DNA from: Clostridia bacterium
GTDB taxonomy: Bacteria; Bacillota_A; Clostridia; Christensenellales; Borkfalkiaceae
DNA length: 11,547 bases
NCBI GenBank assembly: GCA_003979335.1
Contig: RYWC01000015.1
Span: 1 to 11,547 of the forward strand
Reading direction: 5' to 3'
The notes under the pieces are model-generated. The model saw only the letters and a list, made by a program, of their open reading frames with translations. It was not told where the DNA came from and searched no databases. Of the stretch, positions 2,216 through 11,547 are shown one piece after another; the first letter of the stretch is position 1; each line of letters opens with the position of its first letter. Both the position numbers and the translations under genes were made by a program.

Positions 2216-2923
2216 ATGGCAGTCGCAGTGTTGGAAAGGGACGTTCAGACCTTAGAAAAAGAGGAAGCAACCAGCCGTATAAAAGTTAATAGCGGTTTTA
2301 ACACCCGTATGTCCGAGGATGAGCAGCATAACGCCAAGATAGGCGAAATTTATGCTAGGCTTATTAATTCCGATGCAAATGTGGACGAAGTGTTAGGCAG
2401 GTCGCAGGAAGCTGCAAAAGTTTCTGCGCCCAAAGATATTTTTGCAAAACCTTATCTTGTGGAGAATGCAAGGGCAGACAGCGCAATTTGGCGTGCGGAC
2501 AGCCCCGTAAACCGCAAGGTTTCCGAAATGCAGCTTCAGATGGCTGCGGCTGACGCCGAGGAAGAGAACGAAGATTTGCGTCCGACTTCCACGACGATTC
2601 AGTACAAGACTACAGGAGTCAAAAAGACTGTTGAAGAGGGCAAAATTGCAAACACCGGCGTGGAAAAACGCGCGAGCTTGTCAAAAAAAGAAAAAATAAT
2701 AATTGCGGTTGTAGTCAGCGTTATAGTTGCTATGTTTATTTTAATAATAGTAAATTCCGCAATTATTTCAGGCGTCAACGCCGACTTGGGCTCTCTTCAA
2801 ACGTCTTTGACGACAGTAAAAGCGTCTTATGCAGGCGTGAGCGATGAGGTGAATTCGGTCATTGAAAATATCGCCGATAACGCTGAAGATTTTGCGCTTT
2901 CAATCGGAATGGTAAAGCCATAA
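2216..2923 (+). CDS. ftsL: FtsL-like divisome membrane protein with long cytoplasmic tail
   Basis: Probably the FtsL-type bitopic protein that links the FtsQ/DivIC complex to FtsW and its PBP. From this start the product is 235 residues. An N-terminal hydrophilic region of about 160 residues is followed by a Lys-rich stretch (SKKEK), one membrane helix at about 161-185, and about 50 residues outside the cell. The external part has a short heptad-like helix and ends in GMVKP, matching the conserved LGM-x-P end of FtsL-family domains. The tail contains an aromatic patch around Tyr80-Trp92 and an acidic run near 113-120. Typical FtsL proteins are about 90-130 residues with a tail of 20-50. Two ATGs overlap at 2213 and 2216; AGGAG (2205-2209) is spaced better from 2216. 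The slot between rsmH and the PBP is where ftsL sits. Family assignment rests on position and architecture, since primary similarity is low. Confidence 0.68.
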   Translation: MAVAVLERDVQTLEKEEATSRIKVNSGFNTRMSEDEQHNAKIGEIYARLINSDANVDEVLGRSQEAAKVSAPKDIFAKPYLVENARADSAIWRADSPVNRKVSEMQLQMAAADAEEENEDLRPTSTTIQYKTTGVKKTVEEGKIANTGVEKRASLSKKEKIIIAVVVSVIVAMFILIIVNSAIISGVNADLGSLQTSLTTVKASYAGVSDEVNSVIENIADNAEDFALSIGMVKP

Positions 2924-2947
2924 AATTGCGTTAATTCAAGCATATAT

Positions 2948-2953
2948 GGGGGT
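2948..2953 (+). promoter_or_regulatory. Shine-Dalgarno-like GGGGGT before a possible ATA start
   Basis: GGGGGT can pair with the anti-Shine-Dalgarno like GGAGGT, with one G-U wobble. It lies 8 nt before ATA at 2962-2964, which opens a coding-like stretch (KRINKKGFSLTVLQKRLLS) in frame with the PBP. No ATG, GTG or TTG exists in that frame between the upstream stop (2932-2934) and 3016. The match makes a non-canonical start here plausible but does not prove it. Confidence 0.4.
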
Positions 2954-3009
2954 CTATCGTTATAAAACGAATAAATAAAAAAGGGTTTTCTTTAACTGTT
3001 TTACAAAAG

Positions 3010-3050
3010 AGGTTATTGTCATTGGGTTTGACAATAACCTTTATTTTTTT
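3010..3050 (+). terminator. Intrinsic-terminator-like hairpin overlapping the PBP 5' end
   Basis: AGGTTATTGTCA (3010-3021) is perfectly complementary to TGACAATAACCT (3029-3040), giving a 12-bp stem with a 7-nt loop. TTATTTTTTT (3041-3050) follows at once. This is the architecture of a Rho-independent terminator. The stem and T tract also encode the start of the PBP membrane helix, so the element must be read through for the PBP and later genes to be expressed. The candidate TTG starts at 3016 and 3022 lie in its 5' arm and loop, and the AGAGG at 3008-3012 is partly buried in the stem. It may attenuate the downstream genes or mask a start. The T tract alone is partly explained by hydrophobic Phe/Ile codons; the perfect stem is not. 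Confidence 0.6.
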
Positions 3051-4710
3051 CATTATTTTGGGCAGGCTGTTATATGTTCAGATAGCTTGGGGTTCAGACT
3101 TGACCTATCTTGCCGCCGACCAGTGGAACAGGGAAATACCAGTTGTTGCCGCAAGGGGTGTGATTTCGGATAGGAACGGTACCGTGCTTGCCGGCAATAA
3201 AACCACATACAGTGTGTTTCTGCGTCCAAATGCGGTTAAAAATAAAGAGTACACAGCGACCGTGCTCAGCGGTTTGTTTGATTTGGAGCCTGAAAAAATC
3301 TTAGAAAAAATTTCGGGCGGAAAGGTTTCGGAAATTACCGTTGCAAGGCAGGTCAGTAAAGACAGCGTTGAAAAATTAGTTTCATACGACCTTGCAGGCG
3401 TGTATTATTCGCGTGATAACAGCCGTCGGTATACATATAACGACGCGTTATGTCAGGTTTTGGGTTTTACGGCGAACGACGGTTCGGGGCTCAGCGGTAT
3501 AGAAAAATATTACGACAATGTTTTGAGCGGCATCAACGGCGAAATACAGTATTCTACCGATATTATTGGAGTGGAAACGGAAAATTCAGTCGTAGTTTAT
3601 AAGGCGGCTAAAAACGGCGACGAAATAAGACTGACAATTGATATGGATATTCAGCTTGCCGCAGAAAACGCAATGAAAAGCGTATATTCCTCAGCAAATG
3701 CAAAAGCTGTTTCCTGCATAGTCATAAATCCGCAGAATTTCGATATTTTGGCGCTTGCAAACTACCCGTCCTACGATTTGAACGACGTTCCGCGCGATGA
3801 TACGCAAACTTTAAACGCGCTTTCCCGTAACGGACTTGTAAGCGATATTTACGAACCGGGCTCGACGTTCAAAGTCGTAACAGCCGCCGCAAATATCGAA
3901 GAATACATTAGGGGAAACAATAAAGCTTTTTCTAATTCTTATGTTTTCAACGGAAGCCGTACGCGTACGGTTGACGGAACAAAGATTAAATGCTGGTCTG
4001 ACCATTCCAATGGTAAACATTCCAATCAAACGCTTGCAGAAGCTTTAAATAACAGTTGCAACCCGTGTTTTACGGATATTGCGCTGTCTTTGGGTAGTGA
4101 AACTTTTTATAACTATTTAAACGCTTTCGGATTCGGAAACGTCACAGGACTCGACTTCAAAGGCGAAGCGTTGGGTATGCTTGTTCCGCAGACAGCGGTA
4201 AGAGACTGCGATTTGGCGCGTATCGGTTTCGGTCAGACTATCGCTGTAACGGGCGTTCAGCTTGCTTGTGCGGTAGGCGCGGCGGTGAACGGAGGAAATT
4301 ATTACGTTCCGCACTTTCTTAAAAGCATAGTTTCGGCTGACGGCAAGACCGTTTCCGAGTATAAGCCTGTTTTAAAGAATAAGGTTATAAGCGAAAATGC
4401 ATCGAAGGCGCTTGCGCAGATGCTTGAAGGCGTAGTAACAGAGGGTAGCGGTAAAAAGGCTTTCATAGAAGGTTACCGTGTAGGCGGAAAAACGGGTACG
4501 GCGCAAAAATACGAGGGCGGTCATGTCGCACAGGGAAAATATGTATCCTCTTTCTGCGGATTTTTTCCTGCGAATAAGCCTGAATATCTCGCGCTTATAG
4601 TCGTAGACGAACCTCAGGGAACATATTACGGTAGTGCGGTTGCCGCGCCCGTAGCAAAAGAAATTTTCGAAGATATAATCAAAATCAAGAATATAGAGCG
4701 GTACGAATAA
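3016..4710 (+). CDS. Class B penicillin-binding protein, FtsI/PBP2-type transpeptidase
   Basis: Septal peptidoglycan DD-transpeptidase that cross-links stem peptides outside the membrane, probably partnered with the FtsW encoded downstream. Numbered from TTG 3016 (564 residues), a membrane helix spans about 3-22. The N-terminal pedestal carries RGVISDRNGTVLA (47-59), followed by GLSGIEKYYD. The transpeptidase domain has all three active-site motifs: STFK (283-286), SCN (347-349) and KTGT (492-495). There is no C-terminal PASTA domain, which separates it from typical SpoVD and PBP2x. The start is uncertain. TTG 3016 has AGAGG only 3 nt away and TTG 3022 has it 9 nt away, but both leave almost no cytoplasmic tail. 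The frame continues upstream through a basic stretch typical of these proteins to ATA 2962, which would give 582 residues. The TAA overlaps the murE ATG by one base. Confidence 0.93.
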   Translation: MSLGLTITFIFFIILGRLLYVQIAWGSDLTYLAADQWNREIPVVAARGVISDRNGTVLAGNKTTYSVFLRPNAVKNKEYTATVLSGLFDLEPEKILEKISGGKVSEITVARQVSKDSVEKLVSYDLAGVYYSRDNSRRYTYNDALCQVLGFTANDGSGLSGIEKYYDNVLSGINGEIQYSTDIIGVETENSVVVYKAAKNGDEIRLTIDMDIQLAAENAMKSVYSSANAKAVSCIVINPQNFDILALANYPSYDLNDVPRDDTQTLNALSRNGLVSDIYEPGSTFKVVTAAANIEEYIRGNNKAFSNSYVFNGSRTRTVDGTKIKCWSDHSNGKHSNQTLAEALNNSCNPCFTDIALSLGSETFYNYLNAFGFGNVTGLDFKGEALGMLVPQTAVRDCDLARIGFGQTIAVTGVQLACAVGAAVNGGNYYVPHFLKSIVSADGKTVSEYKPVLKNKVISENASKALAQMLEGVVTEGSGKKAFIEGYRVGGKTGTAQKYEGGHVAQGKYVSSFCGFFPANKPEYLALIVVDEPQGTYYGSAVAAPVAKEIFEDIIKIKNIERYE

Positions 4711-7097: not shown

Positions 7098-8459
7098 ATG
7101 TATTTTAAAGGTCAGAAATTTTTTGTGGCGGGTATGTCGGTTTCAGGTGAAAGCAGCGCCCGCTTTTTGCTTGAAAGGGGTGCGGACGTATACATATACG
7201 ACGATGTTGTAAGCGATAAGGTCAGGGAGGTAATGGCTGACCTTGCGAGTCTCGGCGCAAGAATAGTTACCGCCGATGCTTGTGATTTGGCGGCGGACGC
7301 GTGCGATATCCTTGTGCTTAGTCCGGGGATACCCATTGATAACGCATTGCCCGTAAATTTCAGGAAACGCGGAAAGGCTATTATAGGCGAAGAAGAGCTT
7401 GCTGCAATGTTTTTGCGCGCAACTTCAATAGCGGTAACGGGTACTAACGGCAAAACAACGACCGTCACTATGCTTAACGAAGTTTTGAAGGCGACGGGAG
7501 CAAACAGCGTTGCCTGTGGAAACAACGGCAATCCGCTTGTTAAAGAGGTGGAAGATTTGACTTTCAACGACTATGCGGTTATTGAAATTTCTTCTTTCCA
7601 GCTTGAAACCCTATTGAGCCTGCGTCCCCATATTGCGGTAATAACAAACGTTACAGAGGACCATCTTAACAGGCACTACAATATGGACAACTATGTGTTT
7701 TTGAAGTGCAAAATTTTAAGAAACCTGCGAGAAAGCGAGTTTGCGGTTTTGAACTACGACGACCCGATTGTGCGCGGCTTTGCAAAAAATACAAAGGCGC
7801 AGGTTGTGTATTTTTCTATGAATACAAAGGTAAACGGGGCATATTTTGAAAACGGAAGCGTATATTTCAACGGTGAGAAATATTTCGACGTAACCGAACT
7901 CAGTCTCAACGGATTACATAACGTTTACAACGCGCTTGCCTGCGTTGCGGCGGCAGGAATACTCGGGCTGGATAAAAAGACTGTTGCTCAGGCCGTATGC
8001 GCGTTTAAGGGCGTTAAGCACAGGATACAGGTTGTGCGCGAGGTAAACGGGGTAACTTACATAGACGACAGCAAGGGCACAAACGTAGATGCGGCGCTTA
8101 AAGCTGCGCAGTCAATGACCAAACCCACGGTTATTCTGCTTGGCGGCAAGGATAAAGGCGACGATTACGTTCCGCTTTTCGAGGGGTTGAGTTCAAGCCC
8201 TGTCATTCACGCCGTTATTTATGGAGAAAACAGATTTAAAATGCTATCTGCGGCGATAAAAACAGGTTTTGTTGGTTTTTCACTCTGTTCGGAGTTTTCC
8301 GCCGCGGTTATGCTTGCGCAGTTTATAGCTAAGCCTGACCAGAACGTGCTTTTGAGTCCTGCAAGTTCAAGCTTTGACAGTTTTTTGAATTACGAAGAAC
8401 GCGGCGACGCTTTTAAGGAGATAGTGGACGAAATAGATGAAAACGTCCAAAGCGAGTAA
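7098..8459 (+). CDS. murD: UDP-MurNAc-L-alanine:D-glutamate ligase MurD
   Basis: Cytoplasmic Mur ligase adding D-Glu, the product of the MurI reaction, to UDP-MurNAc-L-Ala. It is 453 residues, normal for MurD. An N-terminal Rossmann-like domain (FFVAGMSVSGESSARFL) is followed by the P-loop TGTNGKTT (114-121), EISSFQLE (163-170) and EDHLNRH (187-193). Lys203 is the probable carbamylated lysine. HNVYNAL (274-280), YIDDSKGTN (321-329), LGGKDKG (338-344) and the C-terminal LSPASSSFDSF (419-429) complete the set. EDHLNRH differs mildly from the usual DHLDRH, and SPASSSFD from SPAcaSFD. A GAGGT element (7090-7094) lies 3 nt before the ATG and overlaps the mraY stop. The 3' end overlaps ftsW by 23 bp. 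Confidence 0.96.
   Translation: MYFKGQKFFVAGMSVSGESSARFLLERGADVYIYDDVVSDKVREVMADLASLGARIVTADACDLAADACDILVLSPGIPIDNALPVNFRKRGKAIIGEEELAAMFLRATSIAVTGTNGKTTTVTMLNEVLKATGANSVACGNNGNPLVKEVEDLTFNDYAVIEISSFQLETLLSLRPHIAVITNVTEDHLNRHYNMDNYVFLKCKILRNLRESEFAVLNYDDPIVRGFAKNTKAQVVYFSMNTKVNGAYFENGSVYFNGEKYFDVTELSLNGLHNVYNALACVAAAGILGLDKKTVAQAVCAFKGVKHRIQVVREVNGVTYIDDSKGTNVDAALKAAQSMTKPTVILLGGKDKGDDYVPLFEGLSSSPVIHAVIYGENRFKMLSAAIKTGFVGFSLCSEFSAAVMLAQFIAKPDQNVLLSPASSSFDSFLNYEERGDAFKEIVDEIDENVQSE
7429..7456 (+). repeat. 28-bp direct repeat, copy 2 (murD P-loop)
   Basis: Exact match to 5020-5047 in murE, in the same orientation, about 2.4 kb apart, over the codons of the shared nucleotide-binding loop. Downstream the two sequences diverge, with different synonymous codons for the following Thr-Thr. 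Confidence 0.9.
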
Positions 8460-9594
8460 AAAGTCCGCTGTACCTCTTTATAAGGGGACAGCGGCAGTAA
8501 GATTGAAAAAAACGGGCGACGTTCCTCTTCTGATATGCGTAGTCTTTATGGCGTGTTTCGGCTGTATTATGATTTATTCCGCAAGCTCTTATACGGCGGA
8601 AGTGCAATACGGTGACAGTCTTTACTATGTAAAAAAACAGCTTATAGGCGTATTTCTCGGTATTGCGGCAATGGTGGGAACTTGTTTTCTGTCATACGGC
8701 AAACTTACTAAGCTTAAATTTCCTGCAATAATAGTTTCGGTTATACTGCTTGCTTTGGTGTTCGTTCCGGGCGTAGGTATTACAAACTACGGCGCTACAA
8801 GATGGATAGGCTTCGGCGGCGTGACTTTACAGCCTTCGGAGATCGCAAAATACGCGTTTGCGCTTTTTTCCGCCGCTTATTTCGCAAAAAATCACGAAAA
8901 AGTCAAGACGGTAAAGGGTGTATTGCCTGTTTTGGGCGTTGGTATACTTTTCTGCGTGCTTATAATCATCGAGCCCAATATGTCTATTACGATGTGCGTA
9001 GGGCTTTTGATGCTCGGAATAATATTTTTGAGCGGTACCAACCTGAAAACTTTTCTCGTAATTTTGGTGCCGTTTGCTGTCGCTGTGCCTGTTCTTATTA
9101 TTCTGGAACCTTACAGATTGCAAAGACTGAGCGCTTTCATTGACCCTTGGGCTTCGCCTAAGGACGAGGGCTATCAGCTGATACAGTCGCTTTACGCATT
9201 GGGCAATGGCGGAATTTTCGGACGGGGGCTTTTTAACTCCACTCAGAAATATAGATTTCTGCCTTTTGCCGAAAGTGATTTTATTCTGGCTATTATGGGT
9301 GAAGAGCTTGGTTATGTAGGGCTTCTGATTTTCTTCGCCGCCTGCGGATTTATAGTCTACCGCGGTTTTAAAATAGCCAAAAATTGTAAAGACAGGTTCG
9401 GTTTTCTGCTCGCGGCAGGTTTTACGTTAGTCTATGGAATACAAGTGGCGATAAACGCGCTTGTAGTAAGCGGAACCATACCGCCTACGGGACTTCCGTT
9501 GCCGCTTATAAGCAGCGGCAATACTTCGCTTATAATCACAATGGCATCAATGGGCGTTTTGTACAACATTTCCAAAGTGAACAAGACTGACTGA
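8437..9594 (+). CDS. ftsW: SEDS peptidoglycan glycosyltransferase FtsW
   Basis: Polytopic membrane enzyme that polymerises lipid II into glycan strands at the septum, working with the class B PBP. Its 385 residues begin with a Lys-rich cytoplasmic tail of about 28, then roughly ten membrane segments. Family motifs are IMIYSASS (44-51), RWIGFGGVTLQPSEIAK (122-138), the PYRLQRLSAFIDPW loop (225-238), and PFAESDFILAIMGEELG (276-292). Asp281 in the last matches the essential SEDS aspartate. IPPTGLPLPLISSGNTS (358-374) closes the set. The alternative SpoVE or RodA names are less likely because the gene sits in the division cluster, but sequence alone does not exclude SpoVE. The ATG lies inside the end of murD. 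AAGGAG at 8415-8420 is rather far (16 nt), so coupling to murD probably matters. Confidence 0.93.
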   Translation: MKTSKASKKSAVPLYKGTAAVRLKKTGDVPLLICVVFMACFGCIMIYSASSYTAEVQYGDSLYYVKKQLIGVFLGIAAMVGTCFLSYGKLTKLKFPAIIVSVILLALVFVPGVGITNYGATRWIGFGGVTLQPSEIAKYAFALFSAAYFAKNHEKVKTVKGVLPVLGVGILFCVLIIIEPNMSITMCVGLLMLGIIFLSGTNLKTFLVILVPFAVAVPVLIILEPYRLQRLSAFIDPWASPKDEGYQLIQSLYALGNGGIFGRGLFNSTQKYRFLPFAESDFILAIMGEELGYVGLLIFFAACGFIVYRGFKIAKNCKDRFGFLLAAGFTLVYGIQVAINALVVSGTIPPTGLPLPLISSGNTSLIITMASMGVLYNISKVNKTD

Positions 9595-9612
9595 TTCCGT
9601 CATATTATAAAG

Positions 9613-9653
9613 TAGGGTAACGAGGTAAATTGTTAAAGTGCGCCGTTACCCTA
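9613..9653 (+). repeat. Perfect 10-bp inverted repeat between ftsW and murA
   Basis: TAGGGTAACG (9613-9622) is perfectly complementary to CGTTACCCTA (9644-9653) across a 21-nt spacer. It fills most of the only sizeable gap inside the cluster and ends 12 bp before the murA Shine-Dalgarno (GGAG, 9666-9669). No T tract follows the 3' arm, so it does not look like a standard terminator. It could be a protein-binding operator or an RNA hairpin in the murA leader. Its role is not known from sequence. Confidence 0.65.
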
Positions 9654-9674
9654 TATTTACTATTCGGAGTCAAT

Positions 9675-10931
9675 ATGGAAAAATACATAATTAACGGAGG
9701 AAACAAGCTATACGGCAGCGTCGAAATTCAGTCGGCAAAAAATTCCGTGCTGCCTATACTTGCCGCAACGGTCCTGACGGACGACAAAGTAAAAATATTA
9801 AATGTTCCTGACATTACCGACGCAAAGAATATGGTAAAAATTCTTTCTAAACTCGGCTGTAAGGCTGTGTACAGCGGCGGCGACCTCATCGTGGACAGTT
9901 CGTACGCCGACAGCTACGAAATTCCGAGGGAGCTTGCGCACGAACTGCGATCGTCGGTTTTCTTGCTGGGCTCGATAATTTCGCGTTTCCGCACTGCCAA
10001 AATTGCTTATCCCGGCGGTTGTGACATAGGTCTAAGACCTGTGGATTTGCATCTTGTGGGGTTAAAAAGGCTTGGCGTGGACATAAAAGAGGATAACGGA
10101 TACATAATTTGCACATGCGAAAAACTTACAGGCAATGAAATAATGCTTGACTGTCCGAGCGTGGGCGCGACTGAAAATATAATGCTTGCGGCTGTAAAGG
10201 CGGAGGGCACGACGGTGATAAAAAACGCCGCGCGCGAACCTGAAATAGAAGATTTACAGAAGATGCTAAATTTAATGGGCGCAAAAGTAACGGGCGCAGG
10301 TACAGGGACAGTAATTATAGAGGGGGTAAAAAATCTACACGGCTGTGAATTTTTACCTATTTCCGACAGAATTGAGGCAGGTACGTTTTTAATTGCCGCG
10401 GCAATGTGCGGAGGCGAGGTGGAGCTTAAACGCGCCTGTGCTGAAAATATAAGTTCGCTTTTACATAAACTTAGAGAAAACGGTTGCAAAATACGCGTAT
10501 ACAATGATAAAATAGTGTTGGAAAATCATAGAAGGCTAACTTCGGTAAAAAGTGTTGAAACCCAGCCCTATCCGGGCTTTCCCACCGATTTACAGGCGCA
10601 GATAACGGCTTTAAGCTGTATTTGCAAAGGTCAGTCCATTATCACAGAAAATCTGTTTGAAACGCGGTTCAAATATGTGCCTGAACTCAGAAAAATGGGC
10701 GCTGACGTCACCGTTCTCAACAGAATTGCGTTTGTGAGAGGTGTTGAAAGGTTTAAAGGCGCAACGGTTATCGCGCATGATTTGCGCGGCGGCGCGGCTT
10801 TGGTTTCCGCAGGGCTTGCTGCGGAAGGACGGAGTGAAGTTCTCGATATTTTCCATATAGACAGGGGGTACGGCTCCTTTGAATATAAACTGCGCGCATT
10901 GGGCGGAGATATAGTCAGAGTGTCCGTTTAG
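9675..10931 (+). CDS. murA: UDP-N-acetylglucosamine 1-carboxyvinyltransferase MurA
   Basis: Cytoplasmic enzyme transferring enolpyruvate from PEP to UDP-GlcNAc, the committed step of peptidoglycan synthesis and the fosfomycin target. From ATG 9675 it has 418 residues, the usual length. Catalytic residues are visible: Lys22-Asn23 in SAKNS, Cys116 in PGGCDIGLRPVDLH (equivalent to E. coli Cys115), Asp305 in GFPTDLQAQ and Arg397 in HIDRGYG. Having Cys rather than Asp at 116 predicts a fosfomycin-sensitive enzyme. The ATG is preceded by GGAG (9666-9669) with 5-nt spacing. An in-frame TTG at 9630 would add 15 residues not seen in the family. The gene occupies the place where murG and murC or murB often sit in dcw clusters, and is followed 5 bp later by the ftsQ-like gene. 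Confidence 0.96.
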   Translation: MEKYIINGGNKLYGSVEIQSAKNSVLPILAATVLTDDKVKILNVPDITDAKNMVKILSKLGCKAVYSGGDLIVDSSYADSYEIPRELAHELRSSVFLLGSIISRFRTAKIAYPGGCDIGLRPVDLHLVGLKRLGVDIKEDNGYIICTCEKLTGNEIMLDCPSVGATENIMLAAVKAEGTTVIKNAAREPEIEDLQKMLNLMGAKVTGAGTGTVIIEGVKNLHGCEFLPISDRIEAGTFLIAAAMCGGEVELKRACAENISSLLHKLRENGCKIRVYNDKIVLENHRRLTSVKSVETQPYPGFPTDLQAQITALSCICKGQSIITENLFETRFKYVPELRKMGADVTVLNRIAFVRGVERFKGATVIAHDLRGGAALVSAGLAAEGRSEVLDIFHIDRGYGSFEYKLRALGGDIVRVSV

Positions 10932-10936
10932 CACTT

Positions 10937-11547
10937 ATGAAACACTTGAAGAAAATTGCGGCGCTTGTTCTTGCCGTTGTTATGGCGGCCGCCGTTGCCA
11001 TAGGCATAGGCGTTATTTTTGCCGTCAGGAACATAAACGTTACGCTTTTAAGTTACACTTCAGGCGAGGACGAAGCAAAGAACGAAATAAGCTCATTAAA
11101 GCAGAACGTAGCTGAGAAATGCAAAGGCAGGGTAATTTCTTTTGTAAGCGAAGAGGACGTCGTTTCGGCGTTGGATGAAAACTATACGCTTGAAGTTTTC
11201 GAAAAGATTTTTCCATGCACTCTGAATTTGACTTTAAAGCAGCGCAGGGAAGTTTTTGCGGTTGAAGACGGCGAAAGATTTGCTATGTATGACGATAGCG
11301 GTTCGCTTATGCGTTATGCCGAAGCTAACATAAATTCGACCGATGATTCGCCGAATGTGCTTGTTACCGGTGCCGAAACAGTCGGCGATATGGTGACGAC
11401 GGCGGAAATTTGTAAAATTTTTCAGGATTCGTCCAACTTTGCAGCACTGCGTTCCGTTGTTGAAAGCGTAGCTCTGTACAAATCAAAGACTAATATAAGT
11501 ACCGACAAAGATAAAATTACTTTTTATTTAAGAAGCGGACTTAAAAT
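10937..11547 (+). CDS. ftsQ: FtsQ/DivIB-type cell division protein, 3' truncated by window end
   Basis: Bitopic divisome protein that in other bacteria joins FtsL and FtsB/DivIC to control septal wall synthesis. The frame from ATG 10937 stays open for 203 codons to the end of the window. A short basic cytoplasmic start (MKHLKK) is followed by one membrane helix at about 7-30. A POTRA-like region comes next, from VRNINVTLLSYTS through FVSEEDVVSALDENY to EKIFPCTLNLTLKQRREVFAV (about 30-109). The later SPNVLVTGAE (138-147) resembles the beta-domain entry (LPvitG) of FtsQ. The 3' end lies outside the window. No strong Shine-Dalgarno precedes the ATG, and murA ends 5 bp upstream, so coupling is likely. 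Position after the mur genes agrees with ftsQ/divIB. Identification rests on architecture and short motifs, as this family diverges quickly. Confidence 0.82.
   Translation, partial: MKHLKKIAALVLAVVMAAAVAIGIGVIFAVRNINVTLLSYTSGEDEAKNEISSLKQNVAEKCKGRVISFVSEEDVVSALDENYTLEVFEKIFPCTLNLTLKQRREVFAVEDGERFAMYDDSGSLMRYAEANINSTDDSPNVLVTGAETVGDMVTTAEICKIFQDSSNFAALRSVVESVALYKSKTNISTDKDKITFYLRSGLK

Follow-up and report, generated by a model that had tools for sequence, protein, structure and literature searches.

A hairpin shaped like an intrinsic transcription terminator lies over the first codons of a penicillin-binding protein (PBP) gene in the clostridial DNA analysed here (11,547 nucleotides, hereafter the window), and the question is what such a structure does at a place that the polymerase has to cross on its way to the genes behind. 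According to the ORF list and to Pfam and NCBIfam matches, the gene order of the window is that of a dcw cluster: mraZ, rsmH, an ftsL-like ORF, a class B PBP gene, murE, mraY, murD and ftsW, followed by murA. The PBP is of the SpoVD/FtsI type, its best NCBIfam match being SpoVD with 525 bits, under the cut-off of 688 for that model. The protein at the ftsL position (236 aa) has its hydrophobic segment near residues 160-185 and is matched by no Pfam or NCBIfam model above cut-off.

The element and the set of relatives

The stem is built of AGGTTATTGTCA (3010-3021) and TGACAATAACCT (3029-3040), separated by the loop TTGGGTT (3022-3028), and TTATTTTTTT (3041-3050) follows directly. The perfect 12-bp stem, the 7-nt loop and the T-rich tract of the original prediction are thus borne out by sequence and folding, and the helix has 14 pairs when A3008-U3042 and G3009.U3041 are included. 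Two features of an intrinsic terminator, a stable stem-loop and a U-tract directly after the stem, are present. The segment 3000-3055 folds with -18.2 kcal/mol, against -5.7 ± 2.1 kcal/mol in 200 dinucleotide shuffles, none of which was as stable (z -5.9); none of 300 synonymous-codon shuffles encoding the same peptide equalled the element of the window either. This is the single perfect stem of at least 12 bp (loop of 3-10 nt) in the window, and 60 dinucleotide shuffles of the window contained none. A simple terminator scan of the window is by itself no evidence, because it found 18 terminator-like sites against 14.9 ± 3.8 expected, which is not significant; the evidence comes from the stem length and from conservation. 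When the region 2920-3060 of the window is folded the hairpin remains intact, and antiterminator pairing of its 5' arm is not seen in this fold. The hairpin lies inside the PBP frame, with no separate short leader ORF of the trp type. Rfam gave no match to the window at the gathering threshold, and none at E ≤ 0.05 in 20 sources, the window included.

Table 1. Features of the ftsL-PBP region of the window.
Feature	Position	Strand	Basis
ftsL by position, 236 aa, one hydrophobic segment	2213..2923	+	ORF; name from gene order alone
Shine-Dalgarno (SD) GGGGGT of the PBP gene	2948..2953	+	anti-SD duplex -9.1 kcal/mol before AUA; position same in close relatives
AUA, probable non-canonical PBP start codon	2962..2964	+	no in-frame ATG/GTG/TTG from the upstream stop to codon 3004; most relatives have AUA/AUU/AUC after the SD
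Class B penicillin-binding protein CDS (division/sporulation type)	2962..4710	+	Pfam PBP_dimer and Transpeptidase
Conserved 5' flank GTTTTACAAA	2998..3007	+	synonymous constraint reaches ~2 codons upstream of the Gln codon
Hairpin 5' arm, perfect core 3010-3021	3008..3021	+	sequence, folding, alignment, pairing
In-frame TTG within the stem, start of the ORF lister, not a likely start	3016..3018	+	other codons in 63/145 sequences
Loop, variable	3022..3028	+	alignment of relatives
Hairpin 3' arm, core 3029-3040	3029..3042	+	sequence, folding, alignment, pairing
U-tract TTATTTTTTT, 9/10 T	3041..3050	+	T count and codon choice across relatives

Relatives were obtained from two sources: a scan of contigs with the PBP (75 loci), and a protein search of 398 genomes from the family of L001's genome (G001), of which 351 matched. 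From the best ~150 places of these 351 genomes, 30 loci and 118 more were taken, while two listed places (G516 and G468) were left out for lack of a usable N-terminal end; as the best-scoring places came first, the set leans to closer relatives. The 205 sequences (the window, L001-L056 and L124-L271) were reduced to 155 distinct, 149 anchored, 146 of at least 480 aa and finally 145, which share less than 95% nucleotide identity and include the window; L027, L029, L050, L055, L201 and L206 were left out because their N-terminus was unreadable. PBP identity to the window starts from 53%, gene GC ranges from 0.40 to 0.63, and 137 distinct 57-mers entered the pairing alignment. Family membership is known for the genomes of the family list and of the family protein search, and not for each locus of the 75-locus scan; the close records from that scan are uncultured Clostridia, Clostridiales or Eubacteriales, with one Candidatus Coproplasma.

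Pairing, codon choice and distribution

At least eight of the ten lower-stem pairs are formed in 140 of the 145 PBP genes (all ten in 133, eight or nine in 7), which are called carriers below, and fewer than eight in the other five (L052, L236, L245, L251 and L258). Among the 137 distinct 57-mers, 97.4% of lower-stem cells are paired, and six of the ten pairs contain changes on both sides (24 cells, against a shuffled mean of 6.3). Since shuffles do not control for relatedness, a parsimony count of pair changes was added on a single FastTree tree (167 sequences, midpoint root, arbitrary tie-breaking), which gave 70 one-side and 15 both-side pair-keeping changes and 22 pair-breaking ones; 37 of 1670 cells are unpaired, 24 of them in the five hairpin-less rows. 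Outside the family GGUUA/UAACC has become GGAUA/UAUCC (L292, L297, L299). The original prediction had asked for compensatory stem changes in relatives and had named a kept peptide with lost pairing as the outcome that would speak against it; the result went the other way, with pairing kept and changes found on both sides.

Single transitions in four U-A pairs of the 145 sequences are one-sided: U-G, which keeps the pair, occurs in 132 cells and C-A in none, the former arising from transitions in the 3' arm and the latter requiring transitions in the 5' arm. Pairing seems to outweigh the peptide here, because in the first U-A pair TTA could turn into CTA on the 5' side without affecting the protein, and the 3' change replaces Thr by Ala. 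RNAalifold gives a weak consensus (-1.26 kcal/mol, 6 pairs), probably as a consequence of the upper stem, which re-pairs differently in the LeuSer and PheAla clades.

When synonymous conservation is scored in 566 eight-codon intervals along the whole PBP gene, the top 12 all overlap the element (z up to 6.1), their first positions ranging from 2992 to 3034, over the hairpin and its U-tract. Codon-shuffled versions are never as stable as the natural sequence in 79 of the 145 genes and are so in at most 1% of shuffles in 103, so that the codon-shuffle comparison proposed together with the original prediction is passed at 1% by these 103, the window among them; 21 of the 42 sequences outside the top 1% have a GC of at least 0.55, and 5 are hairpin-less. 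As to the U-tract, the aligned columns 3040-3049 hold 9/10 T in 137 of the 145 sequences and 5 to 8 T in the other 8, and TTT stands at both U-tract Phe codons in 140/140 carriers. Among the 47 carriers with a gene GC of at least 0.55, TTT is found in 47/47 at both Phe codons (21.8 expected at each), and the tract further contains Leu CTT in 29/30 (5.1 expected) and ATT in 17/17 (2.8 expected). These carriers also use TTA for Leu at codon 3013 in 40/47 (1.4 expected by the codon usage elsewhere in the gene), AGG for Arg in 42/47 (6.0 expected) and ATA for Ile in 34/34 (11.3 expected). The U-tract is kept through synonymous codon choice even in GC-rich hosts, and the hairpin is under RNA-level selection, together with selection on the U-tract and a fixed position.

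The constraint also includes codon 3001, which is TTA in 127 of the 133 rows with Leu (12.7 expected from the rest of the gene). Positions 3001-3015 read TTA CAA AAG AGG TTA, i.e., two UUA codons and one AGG flank or enter the 5' arm, the first UUA being outside the stem; in carriers with a GC of at least 0.55, UUA is almost unused elsewhere in the gene (39/44 and 40/47 here, 1.4 expected each). Slowing of the ribosome at the first UUA could matter. The flank GTTTTA is not kept in carriers outside the family.

The 5' arm region CAAAAGAGGTTATTG occurs in one exact copy each in 17 of the 18 genomes behind the loci and is missing from the genome of L052. The exact 16-mer ACAAAAGAGGTTATTG is present in 18 of 396 genomes drawn from the order, in two of them (L090, L092) at unrelated places. 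With a covariance model built from the element, matches were obtained in 33 of 200 genomes of the order, 13 of them members of the family and 20 others by the family list, and in 5 of 186 genomes of the class, all five already in the order sample; search filters are stricter above 40 genomes, which lowers the sensitivity in both samples. In 20/20 carriers outside the family the place of the element in the PBP gene is unchanged, with identities as low as ~35% across the stretch compared. At this sensitivity and in these samples, the element is found in one clostridial order only.

The start codon and the junction upstream

An ORF lister limited to ATG, GTG and TTG puts the PBP start inside the hairpin, owing to probable non-AUG starts. 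The upstream frame is readable in 136 carriers, of which the window is one; in 91 of them no ATG, GTG or TTG stands in frame from the previous stop to codon 3004, and the candidate with the best SD in these 91 is AUC (43), AUA (27) or AUU (21). In 93 carriers (these 91 and two more) the SD duplex of every candidate start is at least as stable as -5 kcal/mol (median -7.8). Of the remaining carriers, 30 have a better SD at an AUH codon, 5 are ambiguous and 8 have it at a canonical one (5 TTG, 2 GTG and 1 ATG; both GTG only 18 nt before the Gln/Arg codon). All these calls rest on SD energy; L046, for instance, has an ATG 6 nt before the chosen AUH. Under one rule for L001-L056, a canonical start is missing from the PBP gene in 38 of 51 loci and from rsmH, murE, mraY, murD, mraZ and murA together in 0 of 261; ftsW (3 of 18) is left out of this comparison, its N-terminal part being poorly aligned. 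Outside the family, UUG has the best SD in 16 of the 20 carriers (AUU ties counted as UUG), AUH in 3 and AUG in 1 (L296). Considering that Ser and Thr residues upstream of the stem are kept while the synonymous sites of their codons vary freely, this stretch is translated. Initiation at 2962, as supposed in the original prediction, is supported in the form of a putative AUA start with an SD. From this AUA the base of the stem is at +47 and the end of the U-tract at +89, and in 76 of the 91 carriers without a canonical start the distance from the first nucleotide of the start codon to the stem base is 34-46 nt. These putative start codons are unusually weak. In a purified system, mismatched initiator pairs, including AUU with a CAU anticodon, gave very low expression (PMC10158994). 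The weak start and the hairpin are not strictly tied to each other, since two hairpin-less relatives (L245, L258) still have SD-AUH starts.

The spacer between ftsL and the PBP gene was scanned for terminators in 143 junctions, two of the 145 having less than 230 nt upstream. All five hairpin-less relatives carry a stem with a U-tract ahead of the PBP gene, in the spacer (-13.2 to -22.8 kcal/mol). This spacer is 110-302 nt long in them, compared with a median length of 19 nt in the 104 carriers that gave no upstream hit; the gene preceding the spacer may be one other than ftsL in L052 and L245. The same scan gave an upstream hit in 34 of 138 carriers, 23 strong (-23.9 kcal/mol or lower) and 11 weak, 8 of the latter lying at least 230 nt upstream. 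The 23 strong ones form, with L239 and L251, one clade of 25 leaves (gene GC 0.49-0.63). The hairpin-less relatives fall into three lineages: L236, L245 and L258 make up one clade, L052 stands apart, and L251 sits within the clade of strong spacer terminators, for which reason its spacer terminator was probably there first. A terminator-like structure is present at every one of the 143 junctions, either within the ORF or ahead of it, which argues for selection for termination at this point of the operon, and the spacer terminators of the hairpin-less lineages point to termination at the junction rather than to masking of a start.

The spacer structure in that clade (L218, L222, L224, L238, L242, L250, L262, L267 and 15 others) is a second long terminator-like structure; in several loci it opens with CGGTCTCGC and has a T7 tail, often with a ACGAAAGA-like string before it, as in the element inside the ORF. 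No Rfam match to it was found in 19 loci. As the spacer terminator of one clade starts with TTTACGAAAGA in several loci, a motif for a genome-wide factor was also considered. The 11-mer TTTACRAAAGA has 33 occurrences across 4 genomes, against 17 for the reversed control, and 29 sites viewed by eye revealed clear hairpins only at the ftsL-PBP junction (L324, L327), inside the PBP gene (L317, L320, L323) and at one ordinary terminator (L335); the string was dropped as a general motif because clear terminator hairpins follow it at those few sites only. A promoter in the spacer (score 9.5 in 3 of 5 hairpin-less relatives, 9.5 or more in 11 of 138 carriers) is too weak to claim.

Proposed action, rival readings and known systems

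We consider it likely that the hairpin and the U-tract constitute an intrinsic transcription terminator within PBP codons ~16-30, limiting readthrough into PBP-murE-mraY-murD-ftsW. Polymerase coming from the mraZ side would either stop at ~3045-3052, leaving an mraZ-rsmH-ftsL message that ends in a stop-less ORF, or read through into the genes behind; since it must do one or the other, the ratio of upstream to downstream genes would be set by the element. Without some means of being let past the site, many of the transcripts may end early. We infer from sequence the termination at this site, its frequency and its tuning by the initiation rate alike.

As to the tuning, the hairpin would be free while a ribosome sits at the start codon, and usual ribosome footprints imply that the ribosome must move ~11 codons to melt it. 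Because the element lies within the first ~90 nt of the CDS, the first ribosome would melt the hairpin only by initiating at once and being ~11 codons on before the polymerase clears the U-tract. A weak start (AUA, AUC or AUU in the family, mostly UUG outside it) makes this race hard, so that termination is probably the default and the polymerase should often win; weak starts may also spare ribosome rescue, since terminated messages would lack a stop codon. The claim of the original prediction that poor initiation would stop transcription fits such starts. That the first ribosome gates the terminator is plausible, with a chance that we put somewhat below one half. Just as tentatively, the first ~30 PBP codons may be the leader of a ribosome-gated attenuator, in which the AUH or UUG start would sense the initiation capacity (IF3, free 30S, SD access) and slow initiation would lead to loss of transcription of PBP, murE, mraY, murD and ftsW. 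In this case transcription of cell-wall and division genes would be tied to translation capacity without a leader peptide, a riboswitch or a protein.

The strongest rival is a constitutive partial terminator without any regulation, which would provide a fixed low readthrough into the PBP and mur genes; it is a sub-case of the terminator reading, compatible with the first half of it, and we put its chance, too, somewhat below one half. The weak start would then be a separate device for low PBP translation that also keeps ribosomes off the stop-less message. According to PMC4824070, which also mentions the pyrBI attenuator, E. coli terminators situated within the first 100 bp of an ORF can function almost unhindered by translation, and one placed 30 bp into an ORF stays efficient, translation lowering it by only ~10%; so small a relief is in favour of termination at a site of this kind and makes strong gating less likely. 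The ordinary spacer terminators of the hairpin-less relatives, unable to sense PBP translation, and the SD-AUH starts kept in two of these relatives agree with the constitutive view as well. However, a constitutive terminator could lie in the spacer, and its retention in codons ~16-30 of 140/145 genes, at a cost in codon choice, suggests that the position inside the ORF matters.

It is unlikely that the element acts as an mRNA structure on translation or on the fate of the message, by slowing ribosomes before the transmembrane segment or by protecting or cutting the mRNA. The element does cover the codons leading into the hydrophobic segment, and its T-richness follows partly from coding for Phe, Ile and Leu; yet a pause or decay element needs no U-tract, and TTT, CTT and ATT are chosen even in GC-rich genes, while spacer terminators stand where the hairpin is missing. 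Still less probable is that the terminated RNA is the main product, with the hairpin as the 3' end of a regulatory RNA made of the ftsL end and the first PBP codons. A precedent exists in FtsO, an sRNA internal to E. coli ftsI with raised wobble-position conservation (PMC7815308), but the scan, which covered the PBP gene, shows no conserved stretch beyond the stem, the U-tract and a short 5' flank, of which GTTTTA is lost outside the family.

The two remaining readings were rejected as very improbable. A DNA palindrome bound by a dimeric protein would account for the inverted repeat and for the single exact copy of the 5' arm in nearly all genomes behind the loci, but it is disfavoured by the U-G cells, which break the DNA symmetry and keep the RNA pairing with no C-A counterpart, and by the conservation of a one-sided U-tract. 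Start-masking, in which the stem would hide a TTG start with AGAGG as its SD, was one half of the original prediction, and both the AGAGG (3008-3012) and the in-frame TTG (3016) are indeed part of the stem; the codon is, however, TTG in 82 of the 145 sequences and TTT, TTC or others in 63, its distance from AGAGG is 3 nt, and conserved coding sequence with an SD-AUH start lies upstream, ~46 nt 5' of the stem. The other half, a terminator or attenuator, is what pairing, the U-tract and the spacer terminators of the 5/5 hairpin-less relatives favour.

In attenuators of the trp, his and pyrBI type a separate leader peptide ORF precedes the structural gene. Like them, the PBP element would be an intrinsic terminator that a ribosome close by could keep from folding, so that translation could decide on readthrough; it differs in that the hairpin is inside the structural gene, that no antiterminator is seen in the fold of the window, and that termination would leave a stop-less ORF. 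The infC gene, which encodes IF3, begins with AUU and is autoregulated at this start. It has in common with the PBP gene an AUH start codon in an essential gene, and the sequence pattern in question (an AUH start with an SD and no in-frame AUG, GUG or UUG) is that of 91 of the 136 carriers; here, in contrast, a class B PBP is encoded, with AUC, AUA or AUU at its start.

The dcw clusters of Rhodobacteraceae also have a Rho-independent terminator in their transcript, with an RNA, UpsM, made on stopping; according to PMC5089854, UpsM is located in a 268-nt 5' UTR before mraZ, whereas the present element is found in Clostridia, inside the PBP ORF after ftsL. FtsO is similar in being an extra RNA function within a division PBP gene with raised wobble-position conservation, but, as PMC7815308 describes it, its ends are ascribed mainly to RNase processing, it acts on RybB as a sponge, and a lack of structure is predicted for its pairing region. 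The mraW RNA motif (RF01746), likewise a candidate structured RNA named for a dcw gene, is listed for Actinomycetales in PMC2864571, and Rfam gives the window no match at the gathering threshold. A literature search, made largely without subscription papers, found no described attenuator of this kind in dcw clusters or inside PBP genes.

The ingredients are already known, namely intrinsic terminators, attenuation, AUH starts, a leader terminator in dcw (UpsM) and an ORF-internal RNA in ftsI (FtsO). Neither the literature search nor Rfam revealed their combination within a PBP ORF, as it is retained by many members of an order. Searches for bacterial RNA regulators often look between genes, and PMC6429828 places structured ncRNAs almost without exception outside coding regions; the present element is inside an essential-type gene, with its U-tract written in Phe, Ile and Leu codons. 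If it terminates transcription, the dosage of division and cell-wall genes would be set at a point after ftsL that the literature search did not find described.

Two observations concern the margins of the window. Behind ftsW (region 8437-11545) there are murA and an ORF at 10937 that runs off the window and has no Pfam match above cut-off. At the other end, positions 1-19 read AGATGTGTATAAGAGACAG, which we take to be the Nextera/Tn5 adapter and which is probably an untrimmed remnant at the contig end; the ORF listed at position 3 (MCIRDR...) begins inside it.
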